Origin: Micromonospora sp. U21
GTDB lineage: Bacteria; Actinomycetota; Actinomycetes; Mycobacteriales; Micromonosporaceae
DNA: 64,000 nt
NCBI RefSeq assembly: GCF_018070045.1
Contig: NZ_JAGPYK010000010.1
Coordinates: 1-64,000 of the forward strand
Direction of reading: 5' to 3'
The notes under the pieces are model-generated. The model saw only the letters and a list, made by a program, of their open reading frames with translations. It made no database searches and was not told the origin of the DNA. Positions 7,901 through 36,321 of the stretch are shown piece by piece. Made by a program: the position numbers and the translations under genes. Position 1 is the first letter of the stretch, and each line of letters starts with the position of its first letter.

Positions 7901-9320
7901 GGAAGCGTGCCCCGGGGACGACGAGCACCCGCCCCCGCCCCGCGTGCGCGTCGAGCCAGTCGGTGGCTTCGTGCCAGTAGCCGGGCACCTCCTTGACACC
8001 ACCCGGCGTGGCGAGCCCGCCGGCGAGCGCTGGCGAAGCGACCGCCGCGACCGCCGCCATGGCCGCTACGGCCGTGACCCAGGCGCGTGCGACGGTTCGC
8101 GGGCGGTGCTGCGCGGGCGCGGTGCGCGCCGCGCGGACGACCAGGCCGATCAGGTGCGCCACGCCGAGCGCCAGCGGCAGGCGGAGCAGGACATCGAACT
8201 TGTGCACGTTGCGCAGCGGGGCGCCGGCGCTGTCGAGAAACTCCTGCTGCGGCCCTGCGAGGATGTTCGGCAGGTCGCCGACGTGCCCGAGACCGACGAG
8301 CGCGGCGCCGAGCACCAGGCCGGTGACCAGGAACCGGCGGTGCGGCATGCCGCGCCGGGACAACCCGAGGATACCGAGGGCCGCGACCGCCAGAGTGGCG
8401 GCGATCAGCAGCGGCTCGTTGGCGAGCCGTGCGCCGGCCGGGATGGTCGCTCCGAACGGGCTGCCCAGGTAGGCGACCCAGTACGAGGCGCCACGGAGCG
8501 TGGTCACCCCGTCGGTGACGCTGGTGGTGTTCCGCGCGGTTTCGATGTAGTCCAGGAACGGTGGGCTGTACCGCCCGAGGATCAGCAGCGGAACCAGCCA
8601 CCACGCCGTGGCCAGGGCGACCGCGCCGCACCAGGCGGCGATGGCGGTTACGCGGCGGCGTACGGGCTGGAGGGTGGCGAGCCAGAGCAGGGCGAGTGGC
8701 ACCACCGCGGCCACGGCCGTGGCGTTGACTCCGCCAGCGCAGGCGACGGCGACGGCCGACCCGGCGACGGCGCGCCGCAGCGGCGTGCCGCGGGCGAGGC
8801 CCACCAGCGGAATGAGCACCCACGGGGCGATGGCGCTCGGCCAGGACTCCACCGAGGCCCAGCCGAACTGGGTGAGGATCCGGGGCGACAGTGCGAAGGC
8901 GACACCGGCGATCATGCGGCCGGCGGGTGTGCCGATGCCGAGCCGCCCGGCCAGCCGCACCGCACCCAGGTACGCGACACAGAAGAGCAGTGCCCACCAC
9001 AGCCGCTGGACCACCCACGGCGCGAGGCCGGCTTCCGTTCCGAGCAGGAAGAACGGACCCATCGGCCACAGATATCCGTACGCCTGGTTCTGGAGCTGCC
9101 CGAACGTGCCGGTGGGGTCCCACAGGTGCAGCGATCGGAGCAGCCAACCGGCCGGGTTGACGCTCAGATCAACCTTGGTGTCCGGGACGATCAGCCCCGG
9201 GGCCTGCTGGAAGGCGAGGGCGGTGAGCGCGATGCAGATGGCCAGGTGCCGGAACCGCCGGGCTGTACGCCGGGTGCGACTGGATCCCGGAGCAGCACCG
9301 TTGGTGACCTCTGCACGCAT
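4965..9320 (-). CDS. AftD-like alpha-(1->3)-arabinofuranosyltransferase family protein (DUF3367)
   Basis: A 1451-residue protein of the size and plan of mycobacterial AftD. N-terminal helices carry a GT-C fold; the first exported loop includes PDTKVDLSVNPAGWL. A long exported part has two discoidin/CBM-like modules, each marked by DGDxxTxW (DGDPATSWQS at about 740, DGDPTTNWSP at about 968). Further helices follow at the C-terminus. AftD uses decaprenyl-phosphoryl-arabinose to branch cell-wall arabinan. Micromonosporaceae have arabinose in their cells but no mycolyl-arabinogalactan, so the acceptor here is unknown. The ATG at 9320 is chosen because AGGAG sits 8 nt upstream and residues further out look non-coding. 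It is divergent from the next gene. Confidence 0.85.
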   Translation of the reverse strand: MRAEVTNGAAPGSSRTRRTARRFRHLAICIALTALAFQQAPGLIVPDTKVDLSVNPAGWLLRSLHLWDPTGTFGQLQNQAYGYLWPMGPFFLLGTEAGLAPWVVQRLWWALLFCVAYLGAVRLAGRLGIGTPAGRMIAGVAFALSPRILTQFGWASVESWPSAIAPWVLIPLVGLARGTPLRRAVAGSAVAVACAGGVNATAVAAVVPLALLWLATLQPVRRRVTAIAAWCGAVALATAWWLVPLLILGRYSPPFLDYIETARNTTSVTDGVTTLRGASYWVAYLGSPFGATIPAGARLANEPLLIAATLAVAALGILGLSRRGMPHRRFLVTGLVLGAALVGLGHVGDLPNILAGPQQEFLDSAGAPLRNVHKFDVLLRLPLALGVAHLIGLVVRAARTAPAQHRPRTVARAWVTAVAAMAAVAAVASPALAGGLATPGGVKEVPGYWHEATDWLDAHAGRGRVLVVPGARFPSYDWGSTTDEITQPLLDSRWAVRNAIPFTPPTTIRLLDAIESTLATGSGSTGLADLLARSGISHVLFRADLDHGRSDTARPAVVRQALERSPGLTRVTGFGPLRGGPSAPDEFRDQGLDVPVRALEVYQVDRRVEPVVAYDRDDVTTVVGGPESLLDLAEAGQLSAAPTILAGDAPAGDVTGSVVMTDGLRKRDVSFGRLRDNASQTLTAEDTFEVSAPAHDYLPEWGAEQSTVARFEGISTIRASTARSQVDSPGGARPEHQPYAAMDGDPATSWQSAPHSPSDQQWIKVSLANPTRVTRVEVRFDLKADSLPTAVTVTAGYESRTIEQFTDHMVFDLPGVHATREVEISVDAAFGLRPLGAGTVGIAEISIPGIRTSRTLQLPAAPATNRPATVVVSAAPTTPACFSVDGRPRCSNDAVRGSEDGSTIDRTLTLPADGAYAPTLWARPTPGPALDAALDELVTDAQSLRLAPQVSASSTAVSDPTGRPGAVLDGDPTTNWSPAVSDEAPILRLKWLKPRVISGLRFSVDQATAATRLGSVRVVGDDGFRSSLLGDDGVLTLDPPMRTDEVTIQFLDKPSASSTDPYRLRLPESLPVAVGEVTVLPGAPTIRPRLDAPLKLACGSGPTLGVGRARVTTTLRGTLRDLLELREMAVAPCGLDTPRQLKLGRGEHRLVTTPSALAAPTLVALVPQAAAPAPAVASSAIEVRSWAATERRVRVSDHPVDRVFAVRENTNAGWRATIGGRTLKPVVVDGWQQGWILPAGTSGEVVLRFAPDATYQAGLLVGGILLAAVVLLAVLPARRPTGLTPSAAVPRGRRRVTRSLPLLAVGATALVLSSGLIGGLLVAAGFMLAVPGPRRLPWTADPRRARMISRAVETWLPGALVLLVGWLYLGSEQRHTDAFSQLAIVVALGALWLSTAARRRPVPTTGGPLAPPTDPAGSAKSAAPVVPEQQTPDEASSAPADGHVPNLSQIT

Positions 9321-9481
9321 TTCGGCTCCTGTCTGCGCCGGCCGGACGCGCACCGGCAACCGACGACTGTCGCGCGACGTTATCCGGACCGGGCACGGAC
9401 GGGCGACCTGGGGCACTGCGGTGGCGTTATCGGGCGAACGGCCGTCCCCACGGCGTGTAAGCGTGTGGCAGGCTGCCGACC

Positions 9482-11365
9482 ATGTCAATGCCAGAAGCTG
9501 AGGCCGAGACGCATCCGGTAGCCGCCGCCTCCGATGGCGACGGACCGGGGCCGTTCGGCCGGTGGCTCCGGGCCGACCGGGTGCGTGCGGTCGCGATGGC
9601 CCTCATCGTCGTGTCCGTCGCCTGGCGCGCCGGCCTCGCCACCCGTGGCTGGTTCTCCCAGGACGAGTTCGTGATCGCCGCCCAGGTCCTCGACACGCGG
9701 CTGGACGCGGATTACCTCCTGCGTACCTTCAACAACCACCTCATGCCGGGCGGCCTGCTGGTTGCGTGGGCGATGGTGCGAGCGGCCGGCTTCGTCAGCT
9801 GGCCGTGGGTGCTGCTGTTGGCGGTTGGCCAGGCGGCGGTCGGCATCGCCCTCTACCGGTTGCTGCGTGACCTGCTCCGGCCGGGTTGGGGCCTGCTCAT
9901 CCCGCTGTGCCTGTACGTATTCAGCCCGCTGACGCTGGAGGTGTCCTCGCTGTGGCTGGTCGGGCTGCTCGTGCTGCCGGTGCAGTTGGCCCTGGTGCTG
10001 GCGGTGGCGGCCCACGTCCGGTATGTGCGAACCGGCCGCCTGCGGCACCTCGTGGTGGTCGCCCTCTGGGTGGTCTTCGGCCTGCTCTTCGACACCAAGG
10101 CACTGCTCATCGTGCCGTTGCTGTTCCTGCTGAGCGTTTTCCTCTTCACGTCGGGCGGCGCGTGGCGCAGCCTGGTGACGGCGATCCGCCGGCACTGGCC
10201 GGCGTGGCTCGTGCTCGGCGTGCTCTCGGGGGCGTACCTGGCGTTCTACCTGACCCGCCCGGCTCGCGAACTGGACGAACCGACATCGGTTGGTCAGGTC
10301 CTCAGCTTCCTCGGTGACCTGGTCGGCGACACCGTCGTACCGGGTCTGCTCGGGGGGCCCTGGCGCTGGACGTACGCCGGCGACGGGCCTCCGCTCGTCT
10401 ACCCGTATGACGTCGCCAAGTGGCTGTCCTGGGCGGTGCTGGTGGCGCTCGTCGTGGTCACTGTCCGGCTGCGCCCGTCGGCCGGTCGGGCCTGGCTGCT
10501 GCTCGTGTGCTACCTCGGGCTGGTCGCCACGCTCTTCGCCGTCACCCGGCTCGGCGGCCCGCTCGGCCCACTCGTCGGCATCATCCCCCGGTACGTCGCC
10601 GACGTGATGCTGGTCGCGGCGATCTGTGTCGGTGTGGCCCTGCTCGGGACGAGGGACGCCAACGAGGACGACGTGGCTACGTGGCCGGTGCCCACCGTCC
10701 TGCGGGAACCGGGCGCCTTCGCGGTCGGCCTGGTCTCGATGATCGTCCTTCTGGCCACCATCGGGGTGGGCACCCTGTGGAGCACGGCCCGATTCGGGGA
10801 CAACTGGAGTACCAAGCACGGACGGGAGTACCTCGCGACGGCGCAGGCCGAGCTGGCCGCCGCGCCGCCGGGGACGGTCTTTCTGGACGCCACCGTCCCG
10901 GACCGTGTCGTCGCCGGGTACTTCTGGCCGGACAACCTCCAGTCGCACTTCTTCCGCCCGGCGGACCGCCGGCCCACGTTCGTGACGGAGGCCGAGAAGC
11001 CGTCGATGTTCGACGAGAACGGCCGGATCCGTCCGGTCGCGGTCCAGGGGCGAAAGATCCTGCCCGGTCCGGTGCCCGACTGTGGGCACCTGGCGGAGAG
11101 CGGCCGGCCCGCCCGGATCCCGCTGGACGGGTACCTGGAGGAGTGGCCGTACGTGCTGCACTTCGGCTACCTCAGCTCGGGCGACTCCACCGCAGTGGTC
11201 CGGCTCGGAAACGCCGCCCGGGAGATCACCCTGCGGCGCGGGCTGAACGAGGTGTTCTTCCTGCTGGAGGGTGCCGGGAGCGCCGTCGAGGTCACCATCC
11301 AGGGCCCGGCAGTGGGGGTGTGCACCAATCTGCTCACCGTCGGCCGGGCGGTGCCGGCACCGTGA
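9482..11365 (+). CDS. polytopic membrane protein, GT-C glycosyltransferase-like
   Basis: 627 residues with about ten transmembrane helices in the first 430, then a soluble exported C-terminal domain of about 200 residues. The first exported loop holds WFSQDEFVIAAQ, with the Asp-Glu pair typical of the catalytic loop of polyprenyl-phosphate-sugar (GT-C) transferases. The C-terminal part (FWPDNLQSHFFRP...) matches nothing I recognise. The stop codon abuts the ATG of the next gene with no gap, so the pair forms an operon. It reads away from the AftD-like gene across a 161-nt promoter region. Sugar transfer on the outer membrane face is inference. Confidence 0.7.
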   Translation: MSMPEAEAETHPVAAASDGDGPGPFGRWLRADRVRAVAMALIVVSVAWRAGLATRGWFSQDEFVIAAQVLDTRLDADYLLRTFNNHLMPGGLLVAWAMVRAAGFVSWPWVLLLAVGQAAVGIALYRLLRDLLRPGWGLLIPLCLYVFSPLTLEVSSLWLVGLLVLPVQLALVLAVAAHVRYVRTGRLRHLVVVALWVVFGLLFDTKALLIVPLLFLLSVFLFTSGGAWRSLVTAIRRHWPAWLVLGVLSGAYLAFYLTRPARELDEPTSVGQVLSFLGDLVGDTVVPGLLGGPWRWTYAGDGPPLVYPYDVAKWLSWAVLVALVVVTVRLRPSAGRAWLLLVCYLGLVATLFAVTRLGGPLGPLVGIIPRYVADVMLVAAICVGVALLGTRDANEDDVATWPVPTVLREPGAFAVGLVSMIVLLATIGVGTLWSTARFGDNWSTKHGREYLATAQAELAAAPPGTVFLDATVPDRVVAGYFWPDNLQSHFFRPADRRPTFVTEAEKPSMFDENGRIRPVAVQGRKILPGPVPDCGHLAESGRPARIPLDGYLEEWPYVLHFGYLSSGDSTAVVRLGNAAREITLRRGLNEVFFLLEGAGSAVEVTIQGPAVGVCTNLLTVGRAVPAP

Positions 11366-29465: not shown

Positions 29466-29552
29466 GGTGGCGTGTCCGAGCGGCCTAAGGAGCACGCCTC
29501 GAAAGCGTGTGAGGGTTAACGCCCTCCGAGGGTTCAAATCCCTCCGCCACCG
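29466..29552 (+). tRNA. serU: tRNA-Ser(CGA)
   Basis: A class II tRNA with a long variable arm. The acceptor stem is GGTGGCG with CGCCACC. The anticodon stem-loop is CACGC-CTCGAAA-GCGTG, giving anticodon CGA. The T-loop is GGGTTCAAATCCC. No CCA is encoded. Its last eight bases begin the 64-nt direct repeat that is found again at 31342. Confidence 0.93.
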
Positions 29553-29608
29553 CTCCTGAGATGCGAAAACGCCCGGTTGATCCGCGAGGATCGACCGGGC
29601 GTTTCTGC
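29545..29608. repeat. 64-nt direct repeat, left copy: tRNA-Ser 3' end plus terminator
   Basis: The repeat runs from CGCCACCG at the tRNA 3' end, through CTCCTGAGATGCGAAA, to a strong hairpin at 29567-29604 (AAACGCCCGGT with ACCGGGCGTTT). It matches 31342-31405 at 63 of 64 positions (T29578 versus C31375). The hairpin is the natural terminator of the tRNA gene. Confidence 0.92.
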
Positions 29609-29780
29609 ATGTGGTCTCGCTGGGCGATGTCCCGACGGACCTGGGCGGTCAGGTGTTGATGTACTGAGGTGCGACGGTCGGCAGACTGGGTCGCCGGTTG
29701 CAGTAGATGGTGGGACGCGCAACAGGCGGATTCGGTCCAGGTCCCGTAACCTCCGGCCGCTGACTGACACAAGTAGGGGT

Positions 29781-30314
29781 ATGAGGGAAGTCAACGCCCG
29801 GGGAGCCGACTGGTTCCGCGGGATCTACGCACGGCACTATCCAGACGTCGTGCGCTACGGACTGCGGCGACTCGAAGGCCTGACGGCGGCGGAGGAACTC
29901 GCCCAGGAGGTCTTCCTGGTGGCCTGGCGGCGCCGGTCGGAACTGCCCCCGCGGACGTTGCCCTGGCTGTATGGGGTCGCTCGTCGGCTGTTGGCCAACC
30001 ATTGGCGTGCCCAACGGGCCGTACCGCCGCCCGTGGAGCTGACCGAGGCTGTCGTGTTGGACCGCCATGACGGCGTGGTGCGGCTGGTCGATGTGCGTGC
30101 GGCGCTCAGTCGGCTCTCGGACGACGATCAGGAGATCCTGCGGCTGGTCGGCTGGGAGCAGTCGTCGCTGAGCGAGGCGGCGCAGGTCTTGGGCTGCGGT
30201 GCGGCCACGGCCAAAGTGCGGCTGCACCGGGCTCGACGGCGGCTGACCGAGATGCTGCGGGAGCATCCCGAACAGACCCCCTCACTCGACGGCCAGCTAG
30301 GAGGGGCGCGATGA
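29781..30314 (+). CDS. ECF-type RNA polymerase sigma factor
   Basis: 177 residues. Region 2 is at about 10-75 (YARHYPDVVRYGLRRLEG, AEELAQEVFLVAWRR) and region 4 at about 105-165 (LSRLSDDDQEILRLVGWEQ, LSEAAQVLGCGAATAKVRLHRARRRL, a helix-turn-helix). It redirects RNA polymerase to a small set of promoters. Its ATG is the first in frame after the weak GTAGGGG site. The stop overlaps the next start by 4 nt (ATGA), so it is coupled to the CU044_5270-type partner, a common pair in which the partner may restrain the sigma factor. Confidence 0.87.
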   Translation: MREVNARGADWFRGIYARHYPDVVRYGLRRLEGLTAAEELAQEVFLVAWRRRSELPPRTLPWLYGVARRLLANHWRAQRAVPPPVELTEAVVLDRHDGVVRLVDVRAALSRLSDDDQEILRLVGWEQSSLSEAAQVLGCGAATAKVRLHRARRRLTEMLREHPEQTPSLDGQLGGAR

Positions 30315-31312
30315 ACAAGCGTGCGCGGGAATTGCTGGAGGCCGCTGACCCGGCCCGTGGGATCCAGTTGGGGGCCGGTGACGTCGAGGAAGTGTTGCGG
30401 CTCGCCAGCAACGACGTGACGTCCTACGACGCCGTGGTACCTGCTCAGCGGGCGCGCCGACTCGTTGCCGTCGGGGCGGCCTTCGCCGTAGTCGCCGTGG
30501 CGGCGATGACGGTCACGGTCCTCCGATCCACCGCCGGACCCGTCGAATCATCCCGGCCTTCGGCTGTTCCGGGTGCCGCTGGCGTTCCGGCCCACTGCCT
30601 GGCCACGATCGCGAACCGGATGCGAGCCACCTCGTACGACGGGCAGACCGGACGGTATGAGTACCTGCACAGGAGGGGGCGGGGTGGCAGTTCGGCATTG
30701 CACGGTGATCCCGCCTGGTCAGCGACCGTCCAGTTCAGCGAGGAGACGTCGCGGTGGCTCGCCGCCAACGGCTCGGGACGCATGCGCATCGTGCGAGGAG
30801 CACCGACCTATCCGGACGAAGCGTCGCGGGATTTCTACAACCGGCACCCAGGCATGATCCCGAAGGAAGGTTCCGAGACGGACGACCTGCGCCCCGGAGA
30901 CCTCAGTGTCCTGCCGCTGCCGGCGGCGGAACCTGCGGCAATGGGTCAGGCGCTGTACCAGCCGCGGGAGAACGGGCCATCGCAGGTGCTTGTCAGCGTC
31001 GCGGAGCTGAACAACGAGCGGGTCGTGGGCTTTGCGCATCGGGTTGCGGTGCTGCGGTTCCTTGCCGGAACGGAGGGGGTGACCTGTCGCGATGAGCAGA
31101 CTGATCCGGCGGGACGGACCGGGGTCGTGGTGTCGGCCGACTTCGGCCGAGGTCCCCGGCCGAGCCCCGGCGATTGGGGCAGGGAGTATCTGCTTTTCGA
31201 CCCGCAGACCGGGGAGTTGCTGGCCAGGGGTGGCGGCGCCAACTCCGCAGCCGGCGGTGTGACGTGGTCGACCGTGTACCTGGAACGGGGTTACACGGAC
31301 GTGCTCGGCTGA
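30311..31312 (+). CDS. CU044_5270 family membrane-anchored partner of the sigma factor
   Basis: 333 residues. A cytoplasmic start of about 50 residues (MNKRARELLEAADPARG) precedes one transmembrane helix (about 54-75). The outer domain of about 250 residues includes YEYLHRRGRGGS and ends TWSTVYLERGYTDVLG. The plan is that of CU044_5270 proteins, encoded after SigE-like ECF genes in actinobacteria. The start of the cytoplasmic part could bind the sigma factor; this is inference. The right direct repeat begins 30 nt after its stop. Confidence 0.78.
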   Translation: MNKRARELLEAADPARGIQLGAGDVEEVLRLASNDVTSYDAVVPAQRARRLVAVGAAFAVVAVAAMTVTVLRSTAGPVESSRPSAVPGAAGVPAHCLATIANRMRATSYDGQTGRYEYLHRRGRGGSSALHGDPAWSATVQFSEETSRWLAANGSGRMRIVRGAPTYPDEASRDFYNRHPGMIPKEGSETDDLRPGDLSVLPLPAAEPAAMGQALYQPRENGPSQVLVSVAELNNERVVGFAHRVAVLRFLAGTEGVTCRDEQTDPAGRTGVVVSADFGRGPRPSPGDWGREYLLFDPQTGELLARGGGANSAAGGVTWSTVYLERGYTDVLG

Positions 31313-31341
31313 CGACGTGACGGCGACATGCGGTTGGCGAT

Positions 31342-31405
31342 CGCCACCGCTCCTGAGATGCGAAAACGCCCGGTCGATCCGCGAGGATCGACCGGGCGTT
31401 TCTGC
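31342..31405. repeat. 64-nt direct repeat, right copy
   Basis: 63/64 identical to 29545-29608, including the last eight bases of tRNA-Ser and the whole terminator. There is no tRNA here, only its 3' stub. It ends exactly before the stop codon of the convergent SDR gene, so its hairpin can end both transcripts. Confidence 0.92.
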
Positions 31406-32155
31406 TCAGAGCTGTTGCTGGCCGCCGTCGACGAAGAGCTCGCCGCCGGTCATGTAGCTGCTCTGGTCGGAGGCGAGGAAGAGCGCGGCGTTGGCGATCT
31501 CGTCCGGTTGGGCCATCCGACGCATGGGCACGCCCGAGGCGATGGCCTGCAACAACCCGGGTGCCTCCTCCGGGCTGGGCGCCAGGCCAGCGACGCCCGG
31601 GGTCTCGGTCGGGCCGGGGATCAGGGTGTTGACCCGAATGTTCCGGCCGACCAGCTCTGCGGCCCAGGTGCGGCCGAACGAGCGGATCGCGGCCTTGGAG
31701 GCGGCGTAGACGCTGAACGCCGGGGTGCCGTTGACCGCGGCCGTCGAGCCGGACAGCACGACGGAGGCGCCCTCGTTGAGCAGGGGCAGGGCCTTCTGCA
31801 CGGTGAAGAGGGTGCCGCGCACGTTGCGGTCGAAGGTGCTCGCGAAGTGCTCGACCGTGATCGAGCCCAGGGGGAGGAACTCCCCGCCTCCGGCGTTGGT
31901 GAATACCACGTCCAGCCCCGCGCCCCGGGCCTGGATCTCCTGCATCACGCGGTCCAGGTCGTCGAGATCGCTCACGTCGCTGGCGACGCCGGTGGCGTTG
32001 GCGCCGATGCTCGTCACGGCCTCGTCTAGCTGCTCTTTGCCCCGTCCGGTGACGAAGACGTACGCGCCTTCGGCGGCGAAGCGGCGGGCGGCGGCCAGGC
32101 CGATGCCGGCGGTGCCCCCGGTGACGAGGGCGATCTTGCCGTCAAGCTGTCCCAC
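31406..32155 (-). CDS. SDR family oxidoreductase
   Basis: 249 residues, a classical short-chain dehydrogenase. The NAD(P) site is TGGTAGIG (12-19), with TNAGG near 90, the catalytic Ser in VVLSGSTAAV, and YAASK near 152-156. PGPTETPG and the C-terminal YMTGGELFVDGGQQQ complete the fold. An Arg after strand 2 (VTGRGKEQ) hints at NADPH. It begins at a GTG, 60 nt downstream of the decayed LLM gene, and probably belongs to the TetR-controlled unit. The substrate is unknown. Confidence 0.9.
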   Translation of the reverse strand: MGQLDGKIALVTGGTAGIGLAAARRFAAEGAYVFVTGRGKEQLDEAVTSIGANATGVASDVSDLDDLDRVMQEIQARGAGLDVVFTNAGGGEFLPLGSITVEHFASTFDRNVRGTLFTVQKALPLLNEGASVVLSGSTAAVNGTPAFSVYAASKAAIRSFGRTWAAELVGRNIRVNTLIPGPTETPGVAGLAPSPEEAPGLLQAIASGVPMRRMAQPDEIANAALFLASDQSSYMTGGELFVDGGQQQL

Positions 32156-33918: not shown

Positions 33919-34449
33919 TCAGCAGGGGCCGGTGCCCTCGTCGAAGAGGCGGCGGGCCCAGTCGGCGTAACCGGCGATGGTCTTCCGGACCGTGCGCCCG
34001 TCGTGCAGGAAGAGGTACGCGCGGTCGCCGCGGCGGGCGAGCAGCCCGTCGAGCCGGTACCTCCCCTGTGGAGCCCGCAGCCGGGTCACCGACGGATAGC
34101 GGGACCAGACCTGGTCGACGGGTGAGCCAGCCGTGATGCCCTCCGGTGTCCGCATCGGGTCGCCAACCCACAGCAGCACCAGTTTGTCCTCGGCGAAGAC
34201 CGGGCTGACCGTGTCGTGGCCGGCGAGCATCGGCCCGCAGGCGTCCAGGTCGGTACGCAGGATGCCCCGGCGGGTCAGTTCAGCCTCGGTGTCACCGAAC
34301 TCGATGTTGCGCAGGCCGTTCAGGTCGATGATCTCCACGCTGCCGGCGGGCCGGCCGTCCGGGACCGGTCCCGGTGGCGGCACGCCGCTGCCGGCGATCG
34401 AGGCAGCCGTCAGCAGCGTGGCAATAAACGCAAATTGTCGCAATTTCAT
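33919..34449 (-). CDS. secreted protein of unknown function
   Basis: 176 residues. A signal peptide (MKLRQFAFIATLLTAASIAG, cleavage near 22) is followed by a 150-residue domain with GLRNIEFGDTEAELTRRGIL and SPVDQVWSRYPSV. These two pieces recall small extracellular proteins of actinobacteria with paired threshold-type repeats, but no family name can be given. Cys at LDACGPM and at the last residue could form a disulfide. GGGG and a T-rich stretch lie upstream; no clear operon partner. Confidence 0.7.
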   Translation of the reverse strand: MKLRQFAFIATLLTAASIAGSGVPPPGPVPDGRPAGSVEIIDLNGLRNIEFGDTEAELTRRGILRTDLDACGPMLAGHDTVSPVFAEDKLVLLWVGDPMRTPEGITAGSPVDQVWSRYPSVTRLRAPQGRYRLDGLLARRGDRAYLFLHDGRTVRKTIAGYADWARRLFDEGTGPC

Positions 34450-34662
34450 GGAATCCCCCAGTCCCCAACGGAACCGGGGCGTTCAGGTTGCTGCCGGTCG
34501 CCGGATTTCTGGAGCGGCGTGGAGACTCTGTGGCCGCCAGCCCACGGATTCCGTTTGGTCGACGGGGATGCCCGGTCGGCGCCCGCCCTGCCCGTTCGCC
34601 TTATTGGAGCAATCCAATCGTCCGCCTACTGTGTCCAGGCGCCTAACGGAAGCGGGGTTCCC

Positions 34663-36321
34663 TTGCAGCGAAGTGCACCGATTCTAGTTGTTTCCACCAT
34701 TCTGGCCAGCCTGGCACTCAGTGTCCCGGCAGAGGCTGCGCAAGGCGTCCGGACCATCACCCGGGAGGGCGTCGTCCTCCAGCACCACCGGGTGTCGTTG
34801 CCGAGGACGATCACCCCGGTGCGGGGCGCGGGCGTCGGCCGCTCCGACTTCGACGGCGACGGCGTCGATGACATCGCGGCCACCGGCGATCCGTTCAACT
34901 ACAACCTGCCCCAGACCCCGGCCGGCGTGGTCACCGTGCGCTACTCGTCGGCCGCGCAGGTCGACTACCTCATGGGCGTCGTGCCACCCGACGGCGGCTG
35001 CAGCTGTTTCGGTCTTGCCCTGGTGGCGGGGGACTTCAACGGCGACCGTTACGACGACCTGGCGATCGGCAACAGTGACGAGGAGGATGCCCGGACCAAG
35101 ACCCACGCCGGCGGGGTCTGGGTCATCCCAGGCAGCCGTACGGGCCTGGTCGTCGACTCGGCAGTCCACTTCAACCAGGATTCGCCGGGTGTTCCGGACA
35201 ACCCGGAGAGCTACGACCGGTTCGGTGCCGCCCTCGCGGCCGGTGACATCAACGGCGATGGCCGCGAGGACCTCGCCATCGGCGCGTTCGGGGAGGCGAT
35301 CGGAAGCAAGGCGAGCGCAGGCGCGGTCACCGTCCTGTTGGGCGGGCCGACCGGTCTCACGGCCACCGGAGCGCAGCACCTCCACCAGGACCAGGCCGCG
35401 GTGCCCGGCGGGGCCGAGGTCAACGACCAGTTCGGCTTCACACTCGCGATCGGAAAGGTCGACAACAACGGTTACAACGACCTGGTCATCGGCGCTCCTC
35501 GCGAGAACGACGGCGTGAGCTGGGACGGCAGTGGCATGGTCACCCTGATGTGGGGCTCGGCGAGTGGTGTGTCGTCCACCGGGGCCACCTCGGTCACAGG
35601 TGCGGCGGTGCTGCCGAACGATGAAAGCGGCACCATCGCGTGGTACCTGGGTGACGCGCTCGCTGTCGGCGACGTGAACGGCGACGGGCTGGGCGAGGTG
35701 GTTGCCGGGGCGCCCGGCGCGCAGACCCCGCACATCAATGGCGGCCTCGTCGCGGTCTTCACCGGCCGCTCCGGCGGCCTGTCCAGCAGTGCGGTACAGG
35801 TCATCACACAGCGCACGGCCGGCGTACCGGGGGATCCTGGAGACGACGATCGCTTCGGTGGTGCGCTGGCGGCCGGTGACGTGACCGGCGACGGCAGAGC
35901 GGACGTGCTGGTCGGCGCCCCGGGCGAGGACATCGGCTCGCAGGCGGAGGCCGGCAGCCTCACCCTGCTCAAGGGCTCCGCCGCCGGGCTGACCGGGAGC
36001 GGTGCGCAGGGATTCGACCAGAACCACCCGGCCGTTCCGGGCGGGTCCGAGAGCGGAGACAAGTTCGGCGCCTCCGTCGCCCTGCTGAACCTCAACGGCA
36101 CCGGCGGGCTCGATGCCGTCGTGGCGTCGACCGGGGAAGAGGTGGGCGGTGACCTTGCCGGATATCCGTCCGGGGTCGTCATGCCGTTCCACGGTGCCGC
36201 CGGCGGGCTCGAACCGCTCAACAAGTCGTGGACTGGTCTGTCTCTGCGCACCGGGGTCGTCTGGCCCCAGCGCTACGGCCTCCGGATCGCCGGGCCGCAG
36301 AGTGGCGGCCCGCTGTACTGA
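34663..36321 (+). CDS. secreted FG-GAP repeat (integrin alpha-like) beta-propeller protein
   Basis: 552 residues from a TTG start that gives a good signal peptide (APILVVSTILASLALSVPAEA). Seven repeats follow, each with an EF-like calcium loop: DFDGDGVDD, DFNGDRYDD, DINGDGRED, KVDNNGYND, DVNGDGLGE, DVTGDGRAD and LNLNGTGGLD. Seven units make one closed seven-bladed propeller. The last loop has lost acidic residues. Such proteins bind ligands or act as carriers outside the cell; the partner is unknown. The 213-nt gap before it has only promoter-like AT-rich stretches. A terminator follows. Confidence 0.82.
   Translation: MQRSAPILVVSTILASLALSVPAEAAQGVRTITREGVVLQHHRVSLPRTITPVRGAGVGRSDFDGDGVDDIAATGDPFNYNLPQTPAGVVTVRYSSAAQVDYLMGVVPPDGGCSCFGLALVAGDFNGDRYDDLAIGNSDEEDARTKTHAGGVWVIPGSRTGLVVDSAVHFNQDSPGVPDNPESYDRFGAALAAGDINGDGREDLAIGAFGEAIGSKASAGAVTVLLGGPTGLTATGAQHLHQDQAAVPGGAEVNDQFGFTLAIGKVDNNGYNDLVIGAPRENDGVSWDGSGMVTLMWGSASGVSSTGATSVTGAAVLPNDESGTIAWYLGDALAVGDVNGDGLGEVVAGAPGAQTPHINGGLVAVFTGRSGGLSSSAVQVITQRTAGVPGDPGDDDRFGGALAAGDVTGDGRADVLVGAPGEDIGSQAEAGSLTLLKGSAAGLTGSGAQGFDQNHPAVPGGSESGDKFGASVALLNLNGTGGLDAVVASTGEEVGGDLAGYPSGVVMPFHGAAGGLEPLNKSWTGLSLRTGVVWPQRYGLRIAGPQSGGPLY

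Follow-up and report, generated by a model that had tools for sequence, protein, structure and literature searches.

Results

The locus lies in a stretch of 64,000 nucleotides from Micromonospora sp. U21 that was analyzed at its full length and is called the window here. It contains an intact tRNA-Ser(CGA) gene, the integration target, detected by ARAGORN at 29466..29553 (+ strand). A 64-nt direct repeat covers the end of this gene and the hairpin that follows it (29545-29608, + strand) and recurs at 31342-31405 (+ strand) with 63 of 64 positions identical, which confirmed the description given in an earlier note on this DNA. The first base of the tRNA's 3′ acceptor strand is also the first of the repeat, which includes 8 nt of the mature tRNA, or 9 by the ARAGORN coordinates. 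Its left, attL-like copy is made up of the acceptor strand, the discriminator and the hairpin, and it aligns with the left end of an element in a relative, G056. The right, attR-like copy lacks tRNA positions 32-79, which are kept by the fuller elements of relatives.

We searched the window's own genome with the repeat and obtained four matches at E<=0.001, all at the two sites, namely, the two copies (5.8e-27 and 9.2e-26) and the opposite-strand hits that their self-complementary hairpins produce. The search gave no third copy in this genome. With only two genomic sites, the repeat is neither a chance similarity nor a common terminator in this genome. A terminator common throughout the genome, which the earlier note had named as an outcome that would speak against it, is thus ruled out. 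The predicted hairpins of both copies are strong (−39.7 and −41.1 kcal/mol, z about −7.5). Neither is followed by a long T run, and a scan for consensus terminators reported none, so our label terminator refers to the hairpin and to where it lies. Transcription of the tRNA, and that of the operon and of the SDR gene beyond it, would stop at these two hairpins.

The insert between the repeats is 1.8 kb long and is mostly filled by two genes. The first (29781..30314, + strand) codes for an ECF RNA polymerase sigma factor of 177 aa, in which Sigma70 regions 2 (Sigma70_r2) and 4 (r4_2) both score above the cut-off in the profile search. The second (30311..31312, + strand), whose start overlaps the stop of the sigma gene (ATGA), codes for a CU044_5270-family protein of 333 aa that barely passed the threshold of NF038083 (100.5 bits for a cut-off of 100). 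The Pfam and NCBIfam profiles thus bore out the initial identification of the two genes as an ECF sigma factor and its CU044_5270 partner. Hydropathy analysis revealed one hydrophobic segment near residues 48-72 of the partner, which would fit a membrane-bound anti-sigma-like protein and suggests that the two proteins form a sigma/anti-sigma pair. No paper naming 'CU044_5270' was found in our literature search.

Upstream of the sigma gene, 29697..29780 (+ strand) aligns with the same region in G021 and presumably holds the promoter. Downstream of the operon, a short 3′ flank (31313..31337, + strand) aligns with the 3′ flank of the module in G105. The homology to G021 begins at 29697 and ends at 31324, and that to G105 ends at 31337, four bases before the right repeat. 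Given these limits on both sides, the operon fills the space between a scrap of element sequence at the left end and the trimmed right repeat. Compared with its G021 counterpart, the sigma gene appears to evolve under purifying selection (dN 0.016, dS 0.148), and the partner gene less so (dN 0.087, dS 0.169).

The left end of the insert holds traces of an integrative element. Directly after the left hairpin lies the motif (A)TGTGGTCTC (29609..29618, + strand), which by alignment is the same in G056 and is absent from the empty sites of G027 and G021. It is followed, on the − strand at about 29618..29680, by the C-terminal scrap of a tyrosine integrase gene, the rest of which is gone. The scrap was identified by tblastn, with 93.3% identity over 15 codons that correspond to residues 378-392 of the 409-aa integrase of G079, and by a nucleotide match of 87% to G056 DNA (query 10-72, E 1.5e-13), G079 being matched as well. 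In G056, G075, G079 and G092, the integrase tail is 63-76 nt farther from the tRNA, and in G133 more than 1 kb farther, which indicates a small deletion on the left side of the window's insert too. Search and alignment showed that the sequence 29609-29680 is not present in front of the sigma gene in G021 or G105.

In a functional AICE, an intact integrase adjoins the att site, whereas only the 15-codon tail is found here. Such an element would also have a replication gene (RepSA, RepAM or Prim-Pol) and a TraB-type transfer gene, but none of these was identified in the insert, in which the profile scan covered the sigma and CU genes. No integrase of the same family was detected in the window's genome at E<=1e-90. 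The absence of integrase and other mobility genes, as initially noted, therefore holds for intact genes but must be amended for the integrase tail.

The repeat is present as a single copy in close relatives. In G027 and G021, deoD is followed by tRNA-Ser, one hairpin and the SDR gene, and strains with one 64-nt copy and no module, which the earlier note had proposed to look for, thus do exist. By deoD identity, these two are among the closest genomes compared (97.7% and 96.9%, respectively; G105 also 96.9%). The SDR oxidoreductase gene, which is the native gene directly after the terminator at empty sites, lies in the window at 31406..32155 (− strand). By coordinate arithmetic, 56 nt separate it from the position in the right copy that is equivalent to the tRNA end, as in G027, and this location and spacing indicate that the right copy is in the native place. 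Among 37 tabulated genomes, 16 have the SDR gene 55-63 nt beyond the tRNA, including three that match part of the gene only (G007, G038 and G074) and two with a further, weaker repeat beyond it (G122 and G148). As for the remainder, some 340 nt precede the gene in G130 and G141, it lies behind a 7-kb element in G133, and the others show no SDR match in the stretch. A fixed arrangement throughout the family is ruled out by the empty sites in relatives.

We then surveyed the genus for repeats, integrases and end motifs at this tRNA. The tRNA-plus-terminator query matched in all 160 genus genomes, and the survey covered 144 of them, the window's included; the 16 left out had the weakest matches, and the sample is therefore not random. 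At most 11 kb downstream were read, and less at contig ends (G010, G015, G079, G105, G109, G116 very short, others too), so that farther repeats were missed and the counts are lower bounds. The measurable length of the repeats was limited by the query, which ended 60 nt after the tRNA. A second repeat starting at tRNA position 32-34 was present in 14 genomes of 144. It measured 107-117 nt in 12 of them and was shorter in G036 (63 nt) and G042 (57 nt). In G105, a second repeat starting at 34 was seen across two separate sequence pieces. Integrase-family matches toward the tRNA within 2.5 kb (E<=1e-3) were found in 27/144 genomes, again counting the window, at least one of them, in G102, being weak (27 residues at 63%). 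The motif TGGTCTC occurred 40-95 nt after the tRNA in 27 of the 31 genomes with an integrase match or a full-start repeat (position 32-36), the window among them, and also in 19 of the 113 genomes with neither. The survey assigned 101 of the 144 genomes to the class 'none'; the end motif is nevertheless present in 16 of these, where longer or decayed elements may lie. Similarities limited to the terminator were seen downstream of tRNA-Ser in several genomes.

Two relatives illustrate fuller elements. In G133, repeats of 107 nt that are 100% identical flank an integrase ORF without stops, the second copy lying 6.9 kb from the tRNA and immediately before the SDR gene; this element of ~7 kb (L152) is probably a recent insertion and would make a good positive control. 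In G079, a tyrosine integrase of 409 aa (Phage_integrase, PF00589) ends beside the tRNA and adjoins a RepSA replication gene of the pSAM2 type (PF20199, 5.6e-141), and a second repeat of this genome is found at the start of another contig. Taken together, the single-copy empty sites and the integrase-bearing elements at the same tRNA support the initial proposal of an insertion that left attL/attR-like repeats.

Other genomes show what appear to be stages of decay. G126 has a 58-codon integrase tail in 0.9 kb and an 87% repeat from position 32, and G051 has an integrase tail, an internal integrase piece and a repeat from position 39. In G020, a 32-codon integrase tail and one ORF of 135 aa are found in 0.87 kb, and the terminator part alone is repeated. 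The repeats start at position 72 in G122, 75 in G081 and 79 in G088, the latter (L075 10845-12759; 60 nt, 90%) nearly as in the window. One FG-GAP-like gene, identified by eye, lies between the repeats of G088, and the stretch shows no trace of an integrase. The end motif is missing from G088 and G122, which makes their link to this element family weaker. The repeat of the window starts at tRNA position 80 rather than 32 and is thus not a full-length repeat from the anticodon region. We read this start as a secondary loss that fits the series of G088, G081 and G122. The measured 8 nt of tRNA, on which the earlier note had remarked, would then be best explained if a longer att repeat had lost its 5′ part. 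As the tRNA half is lost abruptly while the rest is 98% identical, a deletion is likelier than point mutation. A gene resembling the FG-GAP-like gene of G088 was noticed, by eye only, in the window near 34216-36321.

We also looked for the operon at other loci. By DNA, relatives were found in 7/160 genus genomes, the window's included; the other matches listed among 61 genomes were short and nearly all in the sigma gene. At E<=1e-40, 15 of 354 family genomes, representing 4 of 44 genera, encode related CU proteins, and a scan of GTDB contigs with the CU protein yielded one relative, Micromonospora sp. BL4. The operon was not found on plasmids, nor in viral contigs, which were searched for close relatives; the att core, in one exact degenerate form, had no match in viral contigs.

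Four different contexts were seen for the operon, and the window is the only one of the seven genus genomes in which it occupies the tRNA-Ser site. It is located just downstream of tRNA-Pro(CGG) and its terminator in G021 and G105 (about 45 kb from tRNA-Ser in G021), beside an alcohol-dehydrogenase-like gene in G026 and G111, and beside a shared gene of about 440 aa in G088 and G156, both neighbors being named by eye. No tRNA was present near it in the stretches read of these last four genomes, nor near the copies checked in other genera (four of eight). The expectation that the module would be bounded by the same repeat elsewhere was not borne out, as the terminator query had no match in L067, L071, L072, L074, L076 and L084; this check covered the six other genus copies. 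The operon of G111 (L084 9690-10264) is internally deleted, with the start of the sigma gene and the end of the CU gene remaining. The sigma gene of G105 (L071 5656-6188) has 533 nt compared with 534, and its long ORF starts late, owing to a frameshift or a draft-assembly error.

The dS values of the operon relative to G021 (0.15-0.17) fall among those of deoD, TetR and SDR (0.10-0.27), and TMEM (G000-G021, 0.248) is in the same range as the other genes. These comparisons used the rows for deoD, SDR and CU, TetR for G000-G021/G105 and sigma for G000-G021, to the exclusion of all MPE rows, TetR with G027, LuxR, TMEM for G027 and sigma with G105. The earlier note had considered that a family-wide arrangement with divergence at the rate of the species tree would refute it; the arrangement is not universal, but the divergence of the operon from G021 is indeed close to that of its neighboring genes. 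As its dS is near theirs, import is not proved, and import and an older move within the lineage are both possible.

Discussion

The features of this locus very probably reflect a decayed AICE-type integrative element with a passenger operon. An element with a tyrosine integrase targeting tRNA-Ser(CGA) would have inserted in an ancestor and duplicated the 3′ part of the tRNA gene with its terminator. The left copy would have kept the tRNA working, and the displaced right copy would have stayed before the SDR gene. Deletions may then have taken away nearly the whole element: any genes for replication and transfer, all of the integrase but its C-terminal tail and, at the right repeat, the tRNA half. 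One operon, coding for an ECF sigma factor and its coupled membrane partner, would have remained between two hairpins. Several features expected of an AICE remnant were found: a repeat of the tRNA 3′ end flanks an insert, it is single at empty sites, and the ends retain traces of the element family, namely, the TGTGGTCTC motif and the integrase tail. Judging from where the fuller repeats begin, the crossover probably took place in the missing part of the right repeat, and as the right copy lacks that stretch, the remnant is probably immobile by site-specific recombination. We consider it somewhat more probable that the operon was cargo of this element than that it arrived later; no intact element carrying it was seen at the tRNA-Ser site, on plasmids or in viral contigs, and its status as cargo is thus inferred. 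Other observations count against this explanation. The integrase scrap is short, at 15 codons; the copies are 98% identical and yet the right tRNA half is wholly missing, which calls for a clean deletion; and the end motif also occurs in the 19 genomes mentioned above that have no integrase match or full-start repeat.

The earlier note had left open whether the module was a minimal element moved in trans or the remains of a larger one, and our data favor the latter. A minimal integrase-less element mobilized by the integrases of resident AICEs, with the 64-nt repeats as att sites, appears highly improbable. It is true that inserts with position-32 repeats and no integrase-family match exist in G131 (3.2 kb), G047 (5.2 kb), G036 (1.1 kb) and G134 (8.5 kb), that no recombinase was detected by Pfam in 7 proteins tested from G047, G131 and G036, and that the four contexts of the operon could be taken to indicate mobility. 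Nevertheless, tRNA positions 32-79, with which the fuller repeats begin, are missing from the right copy, so that the two copies would not make up a pair of att sites with the crossover region, the copies of the operon elsewhere in the genus are not bounded by the repeat, the integrase tail and element-end sequence are present at the left end, and this genome has no integrase of the family at E<=1e-90. A related proposal, which we also deem highly improbable, is that tRNA-Ser(CGA) hosts integrase-less, att-bracketed cassettes delivered in trans, and that the sigma operon was later fixed by losing the right crossover region; such cassettes would bring in regulators and defense genes by means of resident AICE integrases. 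The inserts of G131 (L083 4443-7815) and G047 (L198), with position-32 repeats about 90% identical and no integrase-family match, carry defense-like genes according to Pfam and PADLOC: a GmrSD-type restriction gene, and DUF5131 with a PDC-M30A-like neighbor.

A different order of events may be envisioned, in which the operon came late to an older AICE remnant already in place, having been picked up by illegitimate recombination, possibly from the tRNA-Pro locus at a distance of 44 kb. This possibility, about which we are doubtful, is a variant of the decayed-element explanation and overlaps with it in the credence given to both. It would account for the presence of the operon next to tRNA-Pro(CGG) in G021 and G105 and its absence from that place in the window's genome, for homology that stops close to the genes on both sides, and for a divergence compatible with common descent, but it requires two events at the same spot, and the aligned stretches show no tRNA-Pro flank beyond 84 nt upstream and about 25 nt downstream. 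Lastly, we give almost no credence to a scenario with no mobile element, i.e., a tandem duplication or a chance terminator similarity around a native operon. The terminator-only similarities of several genomes would suit it, but the 98% identity of the repeat continues into the tRNA, relatives have an empty site, and the insert contains sequences of an integrase and of an element's left end. The idea that the tail is a spurious match is opposed by the intact integrase genes beside the same tRNA.

On the favored reading, the locus is an ordinary kind of genomic fossil that is unusually well resolved here. Integration of AICEs into tRNA 3′ ends and AICE remnants are among the subjects of PMC3218068. 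As in the pSAM2-type AICEs covered there, a tyrosine integrase adjoins the att site at the tRNA 3′ end, and a RepSA-type replication gene is present as well, but in the relative G079; unlike such elements, the window's insert yielded no intact rep, tra or int gene. The decayed AICEs of Streptomyces described in PMC9513070 include, in different strains, an empty site, a functional element, and cargo remains with truncated integrases between direct repeats, and accretion is also described. Hence, AICE decay of this kind is already known, and this locus stands apart by its site, its cargo and its trimmed right repeat. The case illustrated in PMC9513070 involves a glycosyltransferase gene, whereas ours concerns tRNA-Ser(CGA) in Micromonospora and a single ECF sigma operon, with a right repeat that, compared with those Streptomyces elements, has lost its tRNA half. 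The operon itself resembles the CU044_5270/ECF sigma operons of Micromonosporaceae, with the same two genes in the genus copies, but of those examined it alone is bracketed by tRNA-Ser repeats.

This locus illustrates how a regulatory operon can end up on a chromosome in place of a former mobile element, and within a single genus several decay stages of the same element type can be seen at one tRNA. It also cautions that tRNA-tail repeats that are short and lack an integrase gene can be att sites that have been trimmed, and need not represent a new kind of minimal element. As the same operon lies beside tRNA-Pro in two relatives, the locus is well suited to studies of how passenger operons relocate. 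At its own tRNA-Pro(CGG) locus, the window's genome has no operon and harbors a RibD_C-family gene instead (L136, C2:64001-84000, 8797-9752, − strand). That gene is bordered on one side by the tRNA-Pro terminator and on the other by 26 nt that share 92% identity with part of the tRNA-Pro terminator of G021. It thus constitutes a second, smaller insert bracketed by tRNA-tail sequence, and it occupies the position of the sigma operon in G021 and G105.
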